Notes under the pieces: model-generated | What the model saw: only the letters and a program-made list of their open reading frames with translations | Database searches by the model: none | Told to the model about the DNA's origin: nothing | Shown here: piece after piece, positions 59,135 to 64,000 of the stretch | Layout of the letters: each line of letters starts with the position of its first letter | Numbering within the stretch: the stretch's first letter is position 1 | Assembly: GCA_028281045.1 (NCBI GenBank) | Contig: JANQKP010000006.1 | Span: forward strand, 62,001 to 126,000 | Length of the DNA: 64,000 nucleotides | Reading direction: 5' to 3' | Origin: Candidatus Altimarinota bacterium | GTDB lineage: Bacteria; Patescibacteriota; Gracilibacteria; UM-FILTER-43-11 | Translations under genes and position numbers: made by a program

Positions 59135-60690
59135 CTGTAGGCTCTAGAATTGAGAGCTTTTTCAGTAAGCGTTCTTCCTTGTAAGGCCTGCATGAGTACG
59201 GCATGAGCTCTTTCGGCCTCCGGGCCTTCTCTTTGTTCAATTTCTCCCATTACTTGCTTAAGGGTATCCATATCAACAAGTGGATTTTCAAGGAATTGTT
59301 TTCTAAGTTCAATAGAATCAATAACCCCCTCAAACCCTGCATCACACAGGTGTCTTTGAGTGTCTCCCTGACAAAGATAAATGTTAATCTCAGTAAGAAG
59401 TTTAATCAGGCGCTTCGTTTCCTCTCCTTCTAGCTGATTTGGTAGGTTTTCTTCTTCTTTGAGCTTCTCATGGTCTACAGGCACGTAGTAGAACAGAGGT
59501 CTACCATCAAGATGCTTATTAGCCCACTTATTCATTTCAATAATAACGTGTCTAAGAAGCAACGCACGCTGATCATCCCCTACAACCACAAGGTTGGGCA
59601 CAATCGCACCAGGCTTTTCAATGATATTCGAGTAGTCTGTTAGTAGCTCTACAATACCATCGTAAAACTCCTGATCAGTTCCGGCTCGCCCTGGTTCAAT
59701 AAGGACACACTTATTGGTACGAAGTAGTAGCTTACGAATGTCTAAATCGTAGTGATCTACCCTCATGGTCATGGCATCACTTGGCTCCTCGTTAAGCTTG
59801 GCAAAGTTTCCAGGAAGCCCAATAGCCTCTACCCCAGGATCCTCCCCTTTTTCTAGCTTTTCGTCTATAAAACGACGTGTTCCACTAAGGGCGGCACCCA
59901 TGGTTCCAGGACCTCCTCCACTGACTCCTGAAATACCGTAGTGGGCCGATTGATACATAACCTCGTTGGTGATAACGTCATAACAACGGTCGCTACGTGC
60001 AGAGCCCCAAACAGCAACGGTATTGGGTTGCTCTAAAACAGCAATTCCATCCATACACTCGCGAATAGAATGGAAGGCTTTATCTTGCATCATTTGAAGC
60101 TCAGGACTATTCGATTCACGATACTCTTTAGTTTCTTTGTAAACCACAGCGCTCATAGCAGCGAGCATTTCCATCATGGCTTCCGCAGGGTGAGCTCTTT
60201 GGCTAATAATGTCGCCCACAGCTCTATCAGTAATCTTTGTTAGTCTGGCCTGGATTTCTCCCCATTTTTTAAGATCAGCAGGGCTACCAAAACCATTTTT
60301 TTCAAGCTGTTTAGTTTTGCTACGTCTAATGTGAATAGCACCCAGTAGCTGGAATCTATGTATGTATTTAGCTAATTTTGGATCTAACTTATCTGCCTCT
60401 TCATTAATAAAGGCACAGAGCTCACTTAAGTGATGAATGTCTCCGTCGCGCATCTTATCCATCACGCTTTGCCTAAATTCTTTTAGTTCAGGATGCTCTC
60501 TACAAAGATCTTCAACATTAGGAACACCCTGTCTTGTGTGGCGGCCACCAATAAGGTGATAAATCGCACGTCTAACACGCGTATCCCAAATATCAATCTC
60601 ATTTGGAGGAGTAATGATATCCGATTGATCACTGTTCCACTTTTGAACAGCGATAATTTGCTCCCTAATTTTAGGATTACTTCCTGCCAT
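59125..60690 (-). CDS. LOG-family (lysine-decarboxylase-like) nucleotide phosphoribohydrolase, extended
   Basis: This 521-residue protein has a Rossmann core with VAVWGSAR (about 226-233), GVSGGGPGTMGAAL (about 256-269) and EPGRAGTDQEFYD (about 338-350), the LOG signature close to PGGxGTxxE. LOG enzymes release ribose 5-phosphate from nucleoside monophosphates, including cytokinin precursors. An N-terminal helical region of about 220 residues and a C-terminal helical region of about 100 are additions; LOG alone is about 180. Its ATG overlaps the CYTH stop (TAATG), so the pair is coupled. Substrate unknown. Confidence 0.85.
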   Translation of the reverse strand: MAGSNPKIREQIIAVQKWNSDQSDIITPPNEIDIWDTRVRRAIYHLIGGRHTRQGVPNVEDLCREHPELKEFRQSVMDKMRDGDIHHLSELCAFINEEADKLDPKLAKYIHRFQLLGAIHIRRSKTKQLEKNGFGSPADLKKWGEIQARLTKITDRAVGDIISQRAHPAEAMMEMLAAMSAVVYKETKEYRESNSPELQMMQDKAFHSIRECMDGIAVLEQPNTVAVWGSARSDRCYDVITNEVMYQSAHYGISGVSGGGPGTMGAALSGTRRFIDEKLEKGEDPGVEAIGLPGNFAKLNEEPSDAMTMRVDHYDLDIRKLLLRTNKCVLIEPGRAGTDQEFYDGIVELLTDYSNIIEKPGAIVPNLVVVGDDQRALLLRHVIIEMNKWANKHLDGRPLFYYVPVDHEKLKEEENLPNQLEGEETKRLIKLLTEINIYLCQGDTQRHLCDAGFEGVIDSIELRKQFLENPLVDMDTLKQVMGEIEQREGPEAERAHAVLMQALQGRTLTEKALNSRAYRKK

Positions 60691-61469
60691 TAAAATCTTG
60701 GGATTAGTTCGTAAGCTTCCATGATTTTTTGAACCACGCGTTTCTGATCTGCAGGAATAGCATCCACTTGTTTGGCAATGTCTAGCGGTAGTCCATGTAG
60801 TGCTAAATGGAATGACTTCAAGTCTTTGCGACCATGCACAATTTGCTCAAAAATTGCTGGAAGTTTTCCAGCTTGAAGCCAAGCATTTAAAGTTCGTATT
60901 TTTTCTGCTTCGTCATCTCCTTCGGGTTCAACTTCAACAAGCATTAGACCGTTATGAGAAGCAAGGATATCATGCTCTACTTTGATCTGCTCACCATCTA
61001 TATCAAACAGAAGATCGTGCCATACTTTGTCGACACGTCCGCGAATGTAGTCACGTAGTCCAAATTTGTCTACAACGATGTCTACTTGTTCACTATAATC
61101 TTCAGGGGTTTCCAGTTGGTCACAGCTAATACCTCCATGAGTAGGTTGCCCCTTGATAGTAAGCTGACTTATACCTTGATTCGGTTTGATCATAAGCCTA
61201 AGTTCACGAGCGGCCTCTGTGTTTCCAAGGGCCCCTTGTTCTTCCGATGTCCCAAAAGGCACATCGAGTGCATTTAGGCCTGCAATAACCTCATCAAATA
61301 TATGTTGCTTACTCGTATCTAAATACAGCTGGTGTACAGGACCACGGCGATCAAAATAATCACTATCTCTGTTTTCCAGCATAGCTTCAAGCATTTCTTT
61401 GGGTAGTAGATTTGGATCAAAGTGCAATGCTTTAATCTCAGGCTCATGAGCCTCAGGTATTTCACTCAT
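60690..61469 (-). CDS. CYTH-like triphosphate tunnel metalloenzyme
   Basis: This 259-residue protein has an ExExK-type motif near the start (EPEIK, residues 9-13). Further CYTH-like strands follow: RELRLMIKPNQG (Arg/Lys-rich strand), QLTIKGQ, KVEHDIL and LMLVEVEPEGDD (metal-binding Glu). CYTH enzymes hydrolyse or make triphosphates such as thiamine triphosphate, polyphosphate or cAMP. A helical C-terminus of about 70 residues resembles the CHAD-like or other additions of the family but is not assigned. Coupled to the LOG gene. Strong promoter at 61494-61522. Confidence 0.75.
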   Translation of the reverse strand: MSEIPEAHEPEIKALHFDPNLLPKEMLEAMLENRDSDYFDRRGPVHQLYLDTSKQHIFDEVIAGLNALDVPFGTSEEQGALGNTEAARELRLMIKPNQGISQLTIKGQPTHGGISCDQLETPEDYSEQVDIVVDKFGLRDYIRGRVDKVWHDLLFDIDGEQIKVEHDILASHNGLMLVEVEPEGDDEAEKIRTLNAWLQAGKLPAIFEQIVHGRKDLKSFHLALHGLPLDIAKQVDAIPADQKRVVQKIMEAYELIPRF

Positions 61470-61493
61470 ATGAGGGCATAATTAAAGGATATG

Positions 61494-61522
61494 ATTTTAA
61501 TACATATATAAATATTTGTCAA
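61494..61522 (-). promoter_or_regulatory. Promoter of the CYTH-LOG operon
   Basis: On the minus strand TTGACA (61517-61522), a 17-nt spacer and TAAAAT (61494-61499) lie 25 nt before the CYTH ATG. No SD. Confidence 0.85.
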
Positions 61523-61771
61523 GTATAAGAATGCACCTAAAATAACAAGTGTCTAAACTGTCCATTCCACTAATAGAAAAACCTCGTAACAAATGGACAG
61601 CTTTTGTGTATACCCTGTCCTCTATATGTCAAAAAACCATATTACAGTAGTAATGCAAGTGAAAGTGTGACACAAATTTAGACATTTTTAGTTATATAAA
61701 GTGAAAATTTCGCTAGGCAAATGCTCTTTCTAACATAGTGACGATAATATGGCAGACCCACCTATAGTGTA
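61523..61771. other. Intergenic region with an inverted repeat
   Basis: I see no gene here. CTGTCCAT (61558-61565) and ATGGACAG (61593-61600) form an 8-bp inverted repeat with a 27-nt loop. Short GTCTAAA/TTTAGAC-like words recur here and on into the leader (61551, 61677, 61811). The region lies between two divergent promoters and may hold regulator sites. Confidence 0.45.
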
Positions 61772-61800
61772 TTGACATTGTAGACGGTCTCGCGTAAAAT
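61772..61800 (+). promoter_or_regulatory. Promoter of the large SLH protein gene
   Basis: TTGACA (61772-61777), a 17-nt spacer and TAAAAT (61795-61800) predict a start near 61807, at the first base of a perfect hairpin. The resulting leader of about 455 nt is far longer than any other here. Confidence 0.8.
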
Positions 61801-61806
61801 CTCTGC

Positions 61807-62261
61807 GATTGTCTAAAAATTGTGTCCAACAATGACAATCTGCCCACTATAGAAAAAGCCTCCAGCTGACATGGATTTCCGCTCAAAAATAATTGATGCG
61901 GAAAAAAAATTTTAATATCCATGCCATCTGCGTCTGTGCGTGCAAAAATATTTGACCCCACGACTTAGCTCTAAAGATCTAGATCGTGTGATCAATCCGG
62001 TCACAATTGCTCATTAACAACATCGGGGTAGACAAGAGGACATGTCTGTCTACCAAACAGAATAGTCTCCTACTGGGAGACAGTCTGGTGAAAATCCAGA
62101 CACACTTATTTCATATAGGTAGGCAAGTTCATAAACAGCCGAACTCTGTGAAGCTTAGGGCGGAGGTGGTACCACACCGACCTTTAAGCCGACCATTGCG
62201 GCAAATAATAATATTTATAAGAACGAGCCGAATATATTATTTATTAACCCATATATTTATT
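61807..62261 (+). ncRNA. Long structured 5' leader of the SLH gene, T-box-like elements
   Basis: Five perfect or near-perfect hairpins are visible: GATTGTC/GACAATC with ATTGT/ACAAT at 61807-61840; CATGGAT-TTCCGC with its mate at 61870-61923; an 8-bp stem at 62027-62054; GTCTCC/GGAGAC at 62065-62081; and GTCTGG/CCAGAC at 62083-62101 with loop TGAAAAT. GGAGGTGGTACCACACC follows at about 62163-62179, close to the T-box antiterminator consensus, with GGTGAAAATCC upstream resembling the post-Stem-I element. I cannot identify a specifier loop. No ORF is convincing. Confidence 0.5.
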
Positions 62262-64000
62262 ATGGATATCTCTTTGAAAATTAAGAGAGTAATTGCTTCT
62301 GTGAGCGCGTTTGCACTTCTTGTTGCTTACACTCCACTAGCTCTTGCTCAAACGTTCAACGATGTACCATCTGATGCATGGTTCTTCGATTACGTTGAAC
62401 AAGGAGTTGATCAAGGGATTTTCGATTCATCTGACAATTTCCGTCCAGGTGACGCACTTAACCGTGCTGAACTAGTTAAGATTGTAGTTACTGCAATCGA
62501 CGGTCTTGCTGGATACGAAGCTCCTGCTACTCCAACCTTTGACGATGTTCCTACAGATGCATGGTTCTACGACTACGTAGAAGCTGCTGTAGCTGAAGGA
62601 ATCGTTTCTGGTTACACTGATGCGAACGGTAACCTTACCGGTCAATTCGGTCCTGGTGACACGGTTAACCGTGCTGCCGCTACTAAGATCCTTGTAAACG
62701 CTTTCGCGATTGCTACTGATCTTAACCCAGGAAACACCTTTGGTGATGTTTCTTCTGGTGACTGGTTCCACGACTTCGTGGTTACTGCGTACAACCAATC
62801 TGTACTAGATGGTTACGATAACGGTAACTTCGGTCCTGCTGATCCTGTTACTCGTGCACAAGTTGCAAAACTTACTCAAACTGCACAAAACCCAGTTGAA
62901 CGTGTGGTTGCTTCTGACGATGACGACGAACCAGTTGTTTCATCTTCTGACGGTGACCTAGAAGTGTCTCTAAACGATGACACTGCTGCTTCTGCAACAG
63001 TTCCTCGTTCTGGACACGCGATCGACCTTATCTCTATCGACCTTACTGCAGCTGACGACGATGTTGTTCTTAACAACCTAGTTGTTACTCGTGGTGGTGT
63101 AGGGGTAGCTTCTGACTGGGAAAACCTATACATCTACGACGGTACTGAGCGTCTTACTACTGGACGTTCAATCAACAGTGATACCAACGTAGCTACTTTC
63201 GCTATCAACGTTGAAATTGATGCTGGTACTACTAAATCACTACGTGTTGTAGGTGACATGGCGTCTACTGCTACAGCGACTAACCAACATTACTTCTACG
63301 TAGCTTCAGCTTCTGACGTTTCTTCAAACGCTCAAGCTGTTGTTGGTGACTTCCCTGTAACTGGTAACACCTTCACTACTGGTCAACAAACAGTAACTTC
63401 TCTTACTGTTGCTACCGGTACTCAGCCTGCTAACCCACAAGTTGGAGAGCAAGGTGCTGAAATCGCTGCAGTTAAAATGACTGCTGGAGCTGAAAATGAC
63501 ATCGCTCTACACCAAATCACTCTTACTCAAAACGAATCACTTTCTGTTTCTAATCTAGAAAACCTAGAACTAATTGTAGCTGGTGAAACTGTTGCGACTG
63601 CTGATGGATTCGGTGATTCAGAACGTGTTACTTTCGTTCTAGACACTCCATACATCATTCCTGAAGGACAAATCAAAAACTTCTTCGTGAATGCTGACAT
63701 CGTTGGAGGTCGCCCAGGTGATGATCAAATCGAACTTTACCTTGATGAAGACAGTGATGTAATCGCTATCGATCAACAATACGGTTTCGGTGCTTCAATC
63801 ACTAACAACCTAACCACTGCTCTAGTAACTGAACTTACTCTTGAAGGTGGTGACATTACTATTACTGATAACGGTCCTGCTGCAACTCAAATTGCACAGA
63901 ACGACGACAATGTGCCTCTATTTGACATCACTGTTGTTTCTGACCGTCACGTTCTAGTTAAAGAAATGGATCTTACTGCTCGTATTGGTATCGGAGGAGA
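62262..64000 (+). CDS. Large S-layer-homology surface protein (N-terminal part)
   Basis: At least 579 residues are encoded, running off the right edge. A signal peptide (1-30, cleavage near ALAQ) precedes three SLH domains (about 32-84, 87-145 and 148-205; for example TFNDVPSDAWFFDYVEQG). A poly-Asp linker follows, then beta-rich repeats with TTKSLRVVGDM-like strands. This is the layout of an S-layer protein. Codons are strongly biased to CGT, AAC, ATC, GGT and TCT, unlike most genes here, pointing to very high expression. Long structured leader upstream. Probably the main S-layer subunit. Confidence 0.93.
   Translation, partial: MDISLKIKRVIASVSAFALLVAYTPLALAQTFNDVPSDAWFFDYVEQGVDQGIFDSSDNFRPGDALNRAELVKIVVTAIDGLAGYEAPATPTFDDVPTDAWFYDYVEAAVAEGIVSGYTDANGNLTGQFGPGDTVNRAAATKILVNAFAIATDLNPGNTFGDVSSGDWFHDFVVTAYNQSVLDGYDNGNFGPADPVTRAQVAKLTQTAQNPVERVVASDDDDEPVVSSSDGDLEVSLNDDTAASATVPRSGHAIDLISIDLTAADDDVVLNNLVVTRGGVGVASDWENLYIYDGTERLTTGRSINSDTNVATFAINVEIDAGTTKSLRVVGDMASTATATNQHYFYVASASDVSSNAQAVVGDFPVTGNTFTTGQQTVTSLTVATGTQPANPQVGEQGAEIAAVKMTAGAENDIALHQITLTQNESLSVSNLENLELIVAGETVATADGFGDSERVTFVLDTPYIIPEGQIKNFFVNADIVGGRPGDDQIELYLDEDSDVIAIDQQYGFGASITNNLTTALVTELTLEGGDITITDNGPAATQIAQNDDNVPLFDITVVSDRHVLVKEMDLTARIGIGG

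Follow-up and report, generated by a model that had tools for sequence, protein, structure and literature searches.

A putative rRNA-type boxA antitermination leader upstream of the major S-layer gene in a class of CPR bacteria

In the 64,000-nt stretch of Candidatus Altimarinota DNA that was analyzed (the window), a major S-layer gene occupies positions 62262 to 64000 of the + strand and runs past the window end, to about G000:C1:128524. The gene is 4.3 kb long and encodes a protein of 1420 aa with a signal-peptide-like start and three SLH domains. The leader region that we address here is intergenic, lying between this SLH protein gene and a divergent gene on the − strand (60690-61469). Every one of the 18 family genomes contained a match to the S-layer protein (SLH paralogues included), and a match was present in 110 of the 117 genomes of the class. 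Besides the window's own protein, six matches covered most or all of the length at 47-51% identity, and further family genomes carried partial copies of the gene at contig ends; those relatives that carry a name are metagenome-assembled genomes of Candidatus Peregrinibacteria/Gracilibacteria. A DNA-level search with the leader recovered no family relative except itself, and the homologous leaders were therefore gathered via the protein, which yielded an alignment of the upstream regions of 12 orthologues (that of the window included) and one contig-end leader (G012).

A sigma-70-type promoter, TTGACA-17-TAAAAT, with an 11/12 match to the consensus was predicted at 61772-61800 (+ strand). The form TTGACA-17-TANNNT was observed at a conserved position in 9 of the 13 aligned leaders (the window and eight of the 12 others). 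From the position of this promoter, transcription would start at about 61807, which coincides with the left end that the initial annotation had given to a 455-nt structured leader; that annotation had named a start much closer to 62262 as an observation that would speak against it, and the predicted promoter is distal. The structured leader itself proved to be real, in that the predicted promoter lies just ahead of it, its architecture recurs in orthologues, and it folds at −123.7 kcal/mol compared with −95.1 ± 5.6 for shuffled sequences (z −5.14; none of 100 shuffles was as stable). Farther upstream, about 80-110 bp ahead of the −35 hexamer, a conserved DNA block, AAGTGTGACACA...TTTTTAGTTATA (61663-61696, + strand), was aligned in the orthologues, with the form TGTAACAAA.TGTC..AGTTATA in relatives. 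It contains several TGTC/GACA motifs, and in the 750 nt upstream of the 12 orthologues its 12-mers rank second and fourth in conservation; it is likely a regulator site or a second promoter site.

The most conserved 12-mer upstream of the gene was TGCTCATTAACA (62008-62019, + strand), an rRNA-type boxA that the initial annotation had missed. In the 750-nt upstream regions of the 12 orthologues, aligned without reference to boxA, its conservation was 0.90 compared with a mean of 0.50. The boxA consensus in gammaproteobacteria is GYTCTTTAANA (Baniulyte et al. 2017, PMC5725501); GCTCATTAACA agrees with this E. coli consensus at 10 of 11 positions, and the sole deviation (A) is also found in GTTCATTAACA of the genome's own 16S leader. 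In the latter, located via RF00177, a promoter and a GCTTA..TAAGC hairpin are accompanied by TGTTCATTAACA, which stands 248 nt ahead of the 16S gene. The S-layer boxA lies on the same strand as the transcript and downstream of the predicted promoter, ∼200 nt from the predicted start site and ∼240 nt upstream of the start codon. The exact boxA pattern has five matches in the 1.2-Mb genome, with those in the S-layer and 16S leaders among them.

Several hairpins accompany boxA, and the features common to the aligned leaders are the upstream DNA block, H1, the motif NGNTCNTTAA.A, H2, H3, and H4 (all on the + strand). H1 (61952-61995), seen in the predicted fold just upstream of boxA, corresponds in position to the hairpin found ahead of boxA in rRNA leaders; a hairpin in this place was present in most leaders, and the homologous stem in relatives reads TCGAT..TAGACA/TGTCTA.GATCGA. 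Its covariation was modest (score 0.198 vs. 0.139 shuffled, 2/500), partly because the H1 sequence TAGACA/TGTCT is itself conserved. Directly after boxA, the inverted repeat GGTAGACA...TGTCTACC forms H2 (62027-62054), with a counterpart, GGTAGACA...TGTCTATC, in six relatives. H3 (GTCTCC...GGGAGAC, 62065-62081) was found in predicted folds, and most relatives have a hairpin of different sequence in its place. The initial annotation had named a lack of covariation among homologous leaders as an observation that would speak against it, and we found covariation in H4 (GTCTGG-TGAAAAT-CCAGAC, 62083-62101): across the 13 leaders, 92% of cells were paired, five of the nine pairs showed two-sided compensatory changes, and the score was 0.419 compared with 0.223 for shuffled alignments (0/500), with slid controls at most 0.134 and 21-48% paired. 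The covariation tests of H4 and H1 are stronger evidence than earlier helix statistics, for which the arms had been picked from predicted folds. Besides H1 to H4, the predicted fold contains a stem at 62154-62188 (+ strand). Up to the start codon extends an A/U-rich stretch (62236-62261, + strand; TTTATTNNTTAATACCCATACAAATT in relatives), the third most conserved block; a Shine-Dalgarno sequence was absent before the S-layer start codon in the aligned leaders, which carry a conserved TTTATT..TTAATACCCATACAAATT there instead.

The distribution of boxA was analyzed with a position weight matrix (PWM) trained solely on the rRNA-leader boxA sites of 28 genomes and applied to the 500 nt upstream of S-layer genes. 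The training sites were chosen by their resemblance to the boxA consensus, so that the PWM is a boxA matrix by design, and no S-layer region was used to build it. One 16S locus of G005 (L038, contig C76) was excluded from the training set; its 16S start was unlike those of all relatives and its leader had no boxA, and it is probably a contamination of that assembly. The boxA of the window scored 18.7, compared with a mean of 5.1 (sd 2.6) for shuffles. Within the family, all 12 S-layer orthologue leaders reached at least 12 bits, compared with 1.3% of shuffles (0.013) and none of the 12 on the reverse strand. In the other families of the class, at least 10 bits were reached in 36 of 48 S-layer leaders, compared with 5.3% of shuffles (0.053) and one of 48 on the reverse strand; about a quarter of the class-level S-layer leaders had no site above the threshold. 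Nearly all class-level sites lay 130-440 nt before the start. In addition, S-layer and rRNA boxA sites of the same genome shared 11.3 of 18 identities compared with 10.4 of 18 for re-dealt pairs (p 0.002), a similarity that is partly phylogenetic. Because the same boxA arrangement recurs across the class, the coat gene appears to borrow the transcription machinery of rRNA.

We searched for two of the Nus factors, NusB and NusA. NusB scored over the cut-off in this genome and in eight of the nine relatives checked, and this genome also has a NusA gene. No Rho factor turned up in eight genomes of the class (G000, G005, G008, G011, G045, G059, G106, and G117), which include two single-contig genomes; the only matches were far below the cut-off and probably represent ATP-synthase-type ATPases. 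In most of these eight genomes the rRNA boxA was retained, as was NusB where searched. Since Rho was not found, the target of a boxA complex here would not be Rho-dependent termination, and the blocking of Rho as the purpose of boxA is not favored.

Taken together, we consider it probable that the leader is an rRNA-type boxA antitermination leader before the major S-layer gene, on which NusB-S10, with NusA and NusG, makes the polymerase processive. Transcription would begin near 61807, and the nascent RNA would form H1 and expose boxA. NusB-S10 (NusE) would then bind boxA and join the elongating RNA polymerase with NusA and NusG, as on pre-rRNA, and the modified polymerase would resist pausing and intrinsic termination from H2 onwards and through the 4.3-kb gene. 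Such antitermination could support a very high output of surface-coat mRNA, and S-layer output may be tied to how much S10 and Nus factor the cell has available. The binding of NusB-S10, the antitermination, and the positive sign of the effect are inferred from the sequence; no boxC-like element was recognized in the leader.

The leader shares several features with rRNA operon leaders (boxB-boxA-boxC, with NusB/NusE/NusA/NusG/SuhB, in E. coli and other bacteria), namely the boxA sequence, a hairpin upstream of boxA, a TTGAC-type promoter, and an untranslated leader, and the same motif stands in the genome's own 16S leader. It differs from them in that it drives a protein-coding gene, places boxA farther from the promoter, has several conserved hairpins after boxA, lacks a recognizable boxC, and belongs to a genome apparently without Rho. 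Targets of LoaP/RfaH-type processive antitermination include surface polysaccharide operons. The LoaP/RfaH systems (PMC12691694, PMC6370827) resemble our proposal in modifying the transcription complex over long protein-coding units, whereas they employ dedicated NusG paralogues and other sequence elements rather than the general rRNA boxA. In E. coli suhB, the one well-studied protein gene with boxA, the element likewise lies in the leader of a protein-coding gene, the 5′ UTR, and there the Nus complex represses (PMC5725501); however, the suhB boxA is close to the gene start and represses with Rho, whereas the S-layer boxA precedes a major structural gene at a distance and is conserved across much of a bacterial class.

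Because boxA represses in suhB, the sign of the effect in the S-layer leader could also be negative. Leader-bound NusB-S10 might act as a brake: with free Nus factors or S10 in plentiful supply, transcription or translation of the S-layer gene would fall, and coat synthesis would thereby be coupled to ribosome assembly. Brakes of this type are documented for suhB and for a ParE-like toxin gene in enterobacteria (PMC5725501), and the heavy folding of the leader and its lack of a Shine-Dalgarno sequence would suit one; however, repression of suhB involves both Rho and a boxA near the gene start, neither of which was found here, and a major coat protein would be expected to need high output, so that we consider a brake rather unlikely. 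The leader might also serve mainly to stabilize the mRNA or to aid translation, with the boxA-like motif in another role, such as direct contact with the 30S subunit or the binding of some other protein. Several hairpins lie far from boxA, one of them with clear covariation, and the A/U-rich stretch at the start codon is conserved, which would fit such a function; yet no other element is as strongly conserved as the motif, which also agrees with the boxA in the rRNA leaders of these genomes, and a stabilizing or translational role would be compatible with boxA antitermination. As the main function of the leader, we judge it quite improbable.

A further rival reading is a T-box riboswitch sensing uncharged tRNA; the initial annotation had pointed to T-box-like elements. 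The letters resembling the core of the antiterminator (GAGGTGGTACCACACCG, 62163-62179) and the upstream element (GGTGAAAATCC, 62087-62097) are indeed present, but they fall within two plain hairpins that are formed from different sequences in relatives: GGTGAAAATCC makes up the loop and inner stem of H4, and GAGGTGGTACCACACCG belongs to the simple stem 62154-62188, at whose position most relatives carry a long GCGAAG...CTTCGC stem instead. Neither sequence is kept in the orthologous leaders, and the segment 62163-62179 has no counterpart in 11 of them; thus, neither is a T-box element. Even with E values of up to 10 allowed, the T-box model RF00230 had no match in 61460-62500, nor does the leader precede an amino-acid gene. 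The likeness is superficial, and we regard a T-box as extremely improbable. Sub-threshold matches to other Rfam families in 61460-62500 were at chance level, and the whole window at gathering scores gave two tRNAs only. The fallback proposed in the same annotation, a leader RNA of a type not yet described, here ahead of a surface protein gene, is supported and can now be made specific as a leader resembling the boxA-type (NusB/S10) antitermination leaders.

Antitermination by boxA and the Nus factors is usually regarded as dedicated to rRNA, with a handful of small regulatory targets besides. The literature searched, which excluded most subscription papers, yielded no boxA target in an S-layer gene or in CPR bacteria. 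An element of this kind is known; its use before a major structural gene, across a class and apparently without Rho, is new within the reach of our tests. If antitermination at the S-layer gene is correct, boxA and the Nus factors would constitute a system for the mass production of a structural protein, and the leader would provide a first regulatory signal for CPR surface coats. We more tentatively suggest, as a possibility that falls somewhat short of probable, that an ultra-small and apparently Rho-less class anciently put its main coat gene under rRNA antitermination, so that a single NusB-S10 pool serves both coat and ribosome synthesis and keeps the two in balance, its target being intrinsic termination, pausing, or RNA folding and not Rho. 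Since Rho was not found, these genomes would also be a natural setting in which to look for functions of the Nus complex other than the blocking of Rho.

As a general feature of SLH genes, boxA was rejected, since at least 10 bits were reached in only 2 of 27 SLH paralogues and in none of the Clostridia SLH genes. As a general feature of CPR S-layers it was unsupported: when 20 genomes from other CPR classes that encode a related S-layer domain were scored, three reached at least 10 bits, and the reverse strand gave one of 20. In one family among them (f34), however, the motif ATTTGC.C.TTAA.AAT.AGGGTAA is shared by two genomes. One SLH paralogue (L030, G016:C54) is preceded, at a distance of about 212 nt, by a strong boxA-like site, TGTTCTTTTACATTATTG, which lies downstream of a TTGACA..TAACAT promoter-like sequence. 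In the genome of the window, two further intergenic boxA-like sites, L078 1501-1514 (G000:C1:221773) and L063 1501-1514 (G000:C1:55065), lie 61 and 140 nt, respectively, upstream of genes whose products start like signal peptides and match no Pfam family; these two are possible further members of a boxA regulon. Both of their leaders carry CATGTGGAA after boxA, and, in contrast to the S-layer gene, both genes have purine-rich sequences resembling a Shine-Dalgarno sequence.
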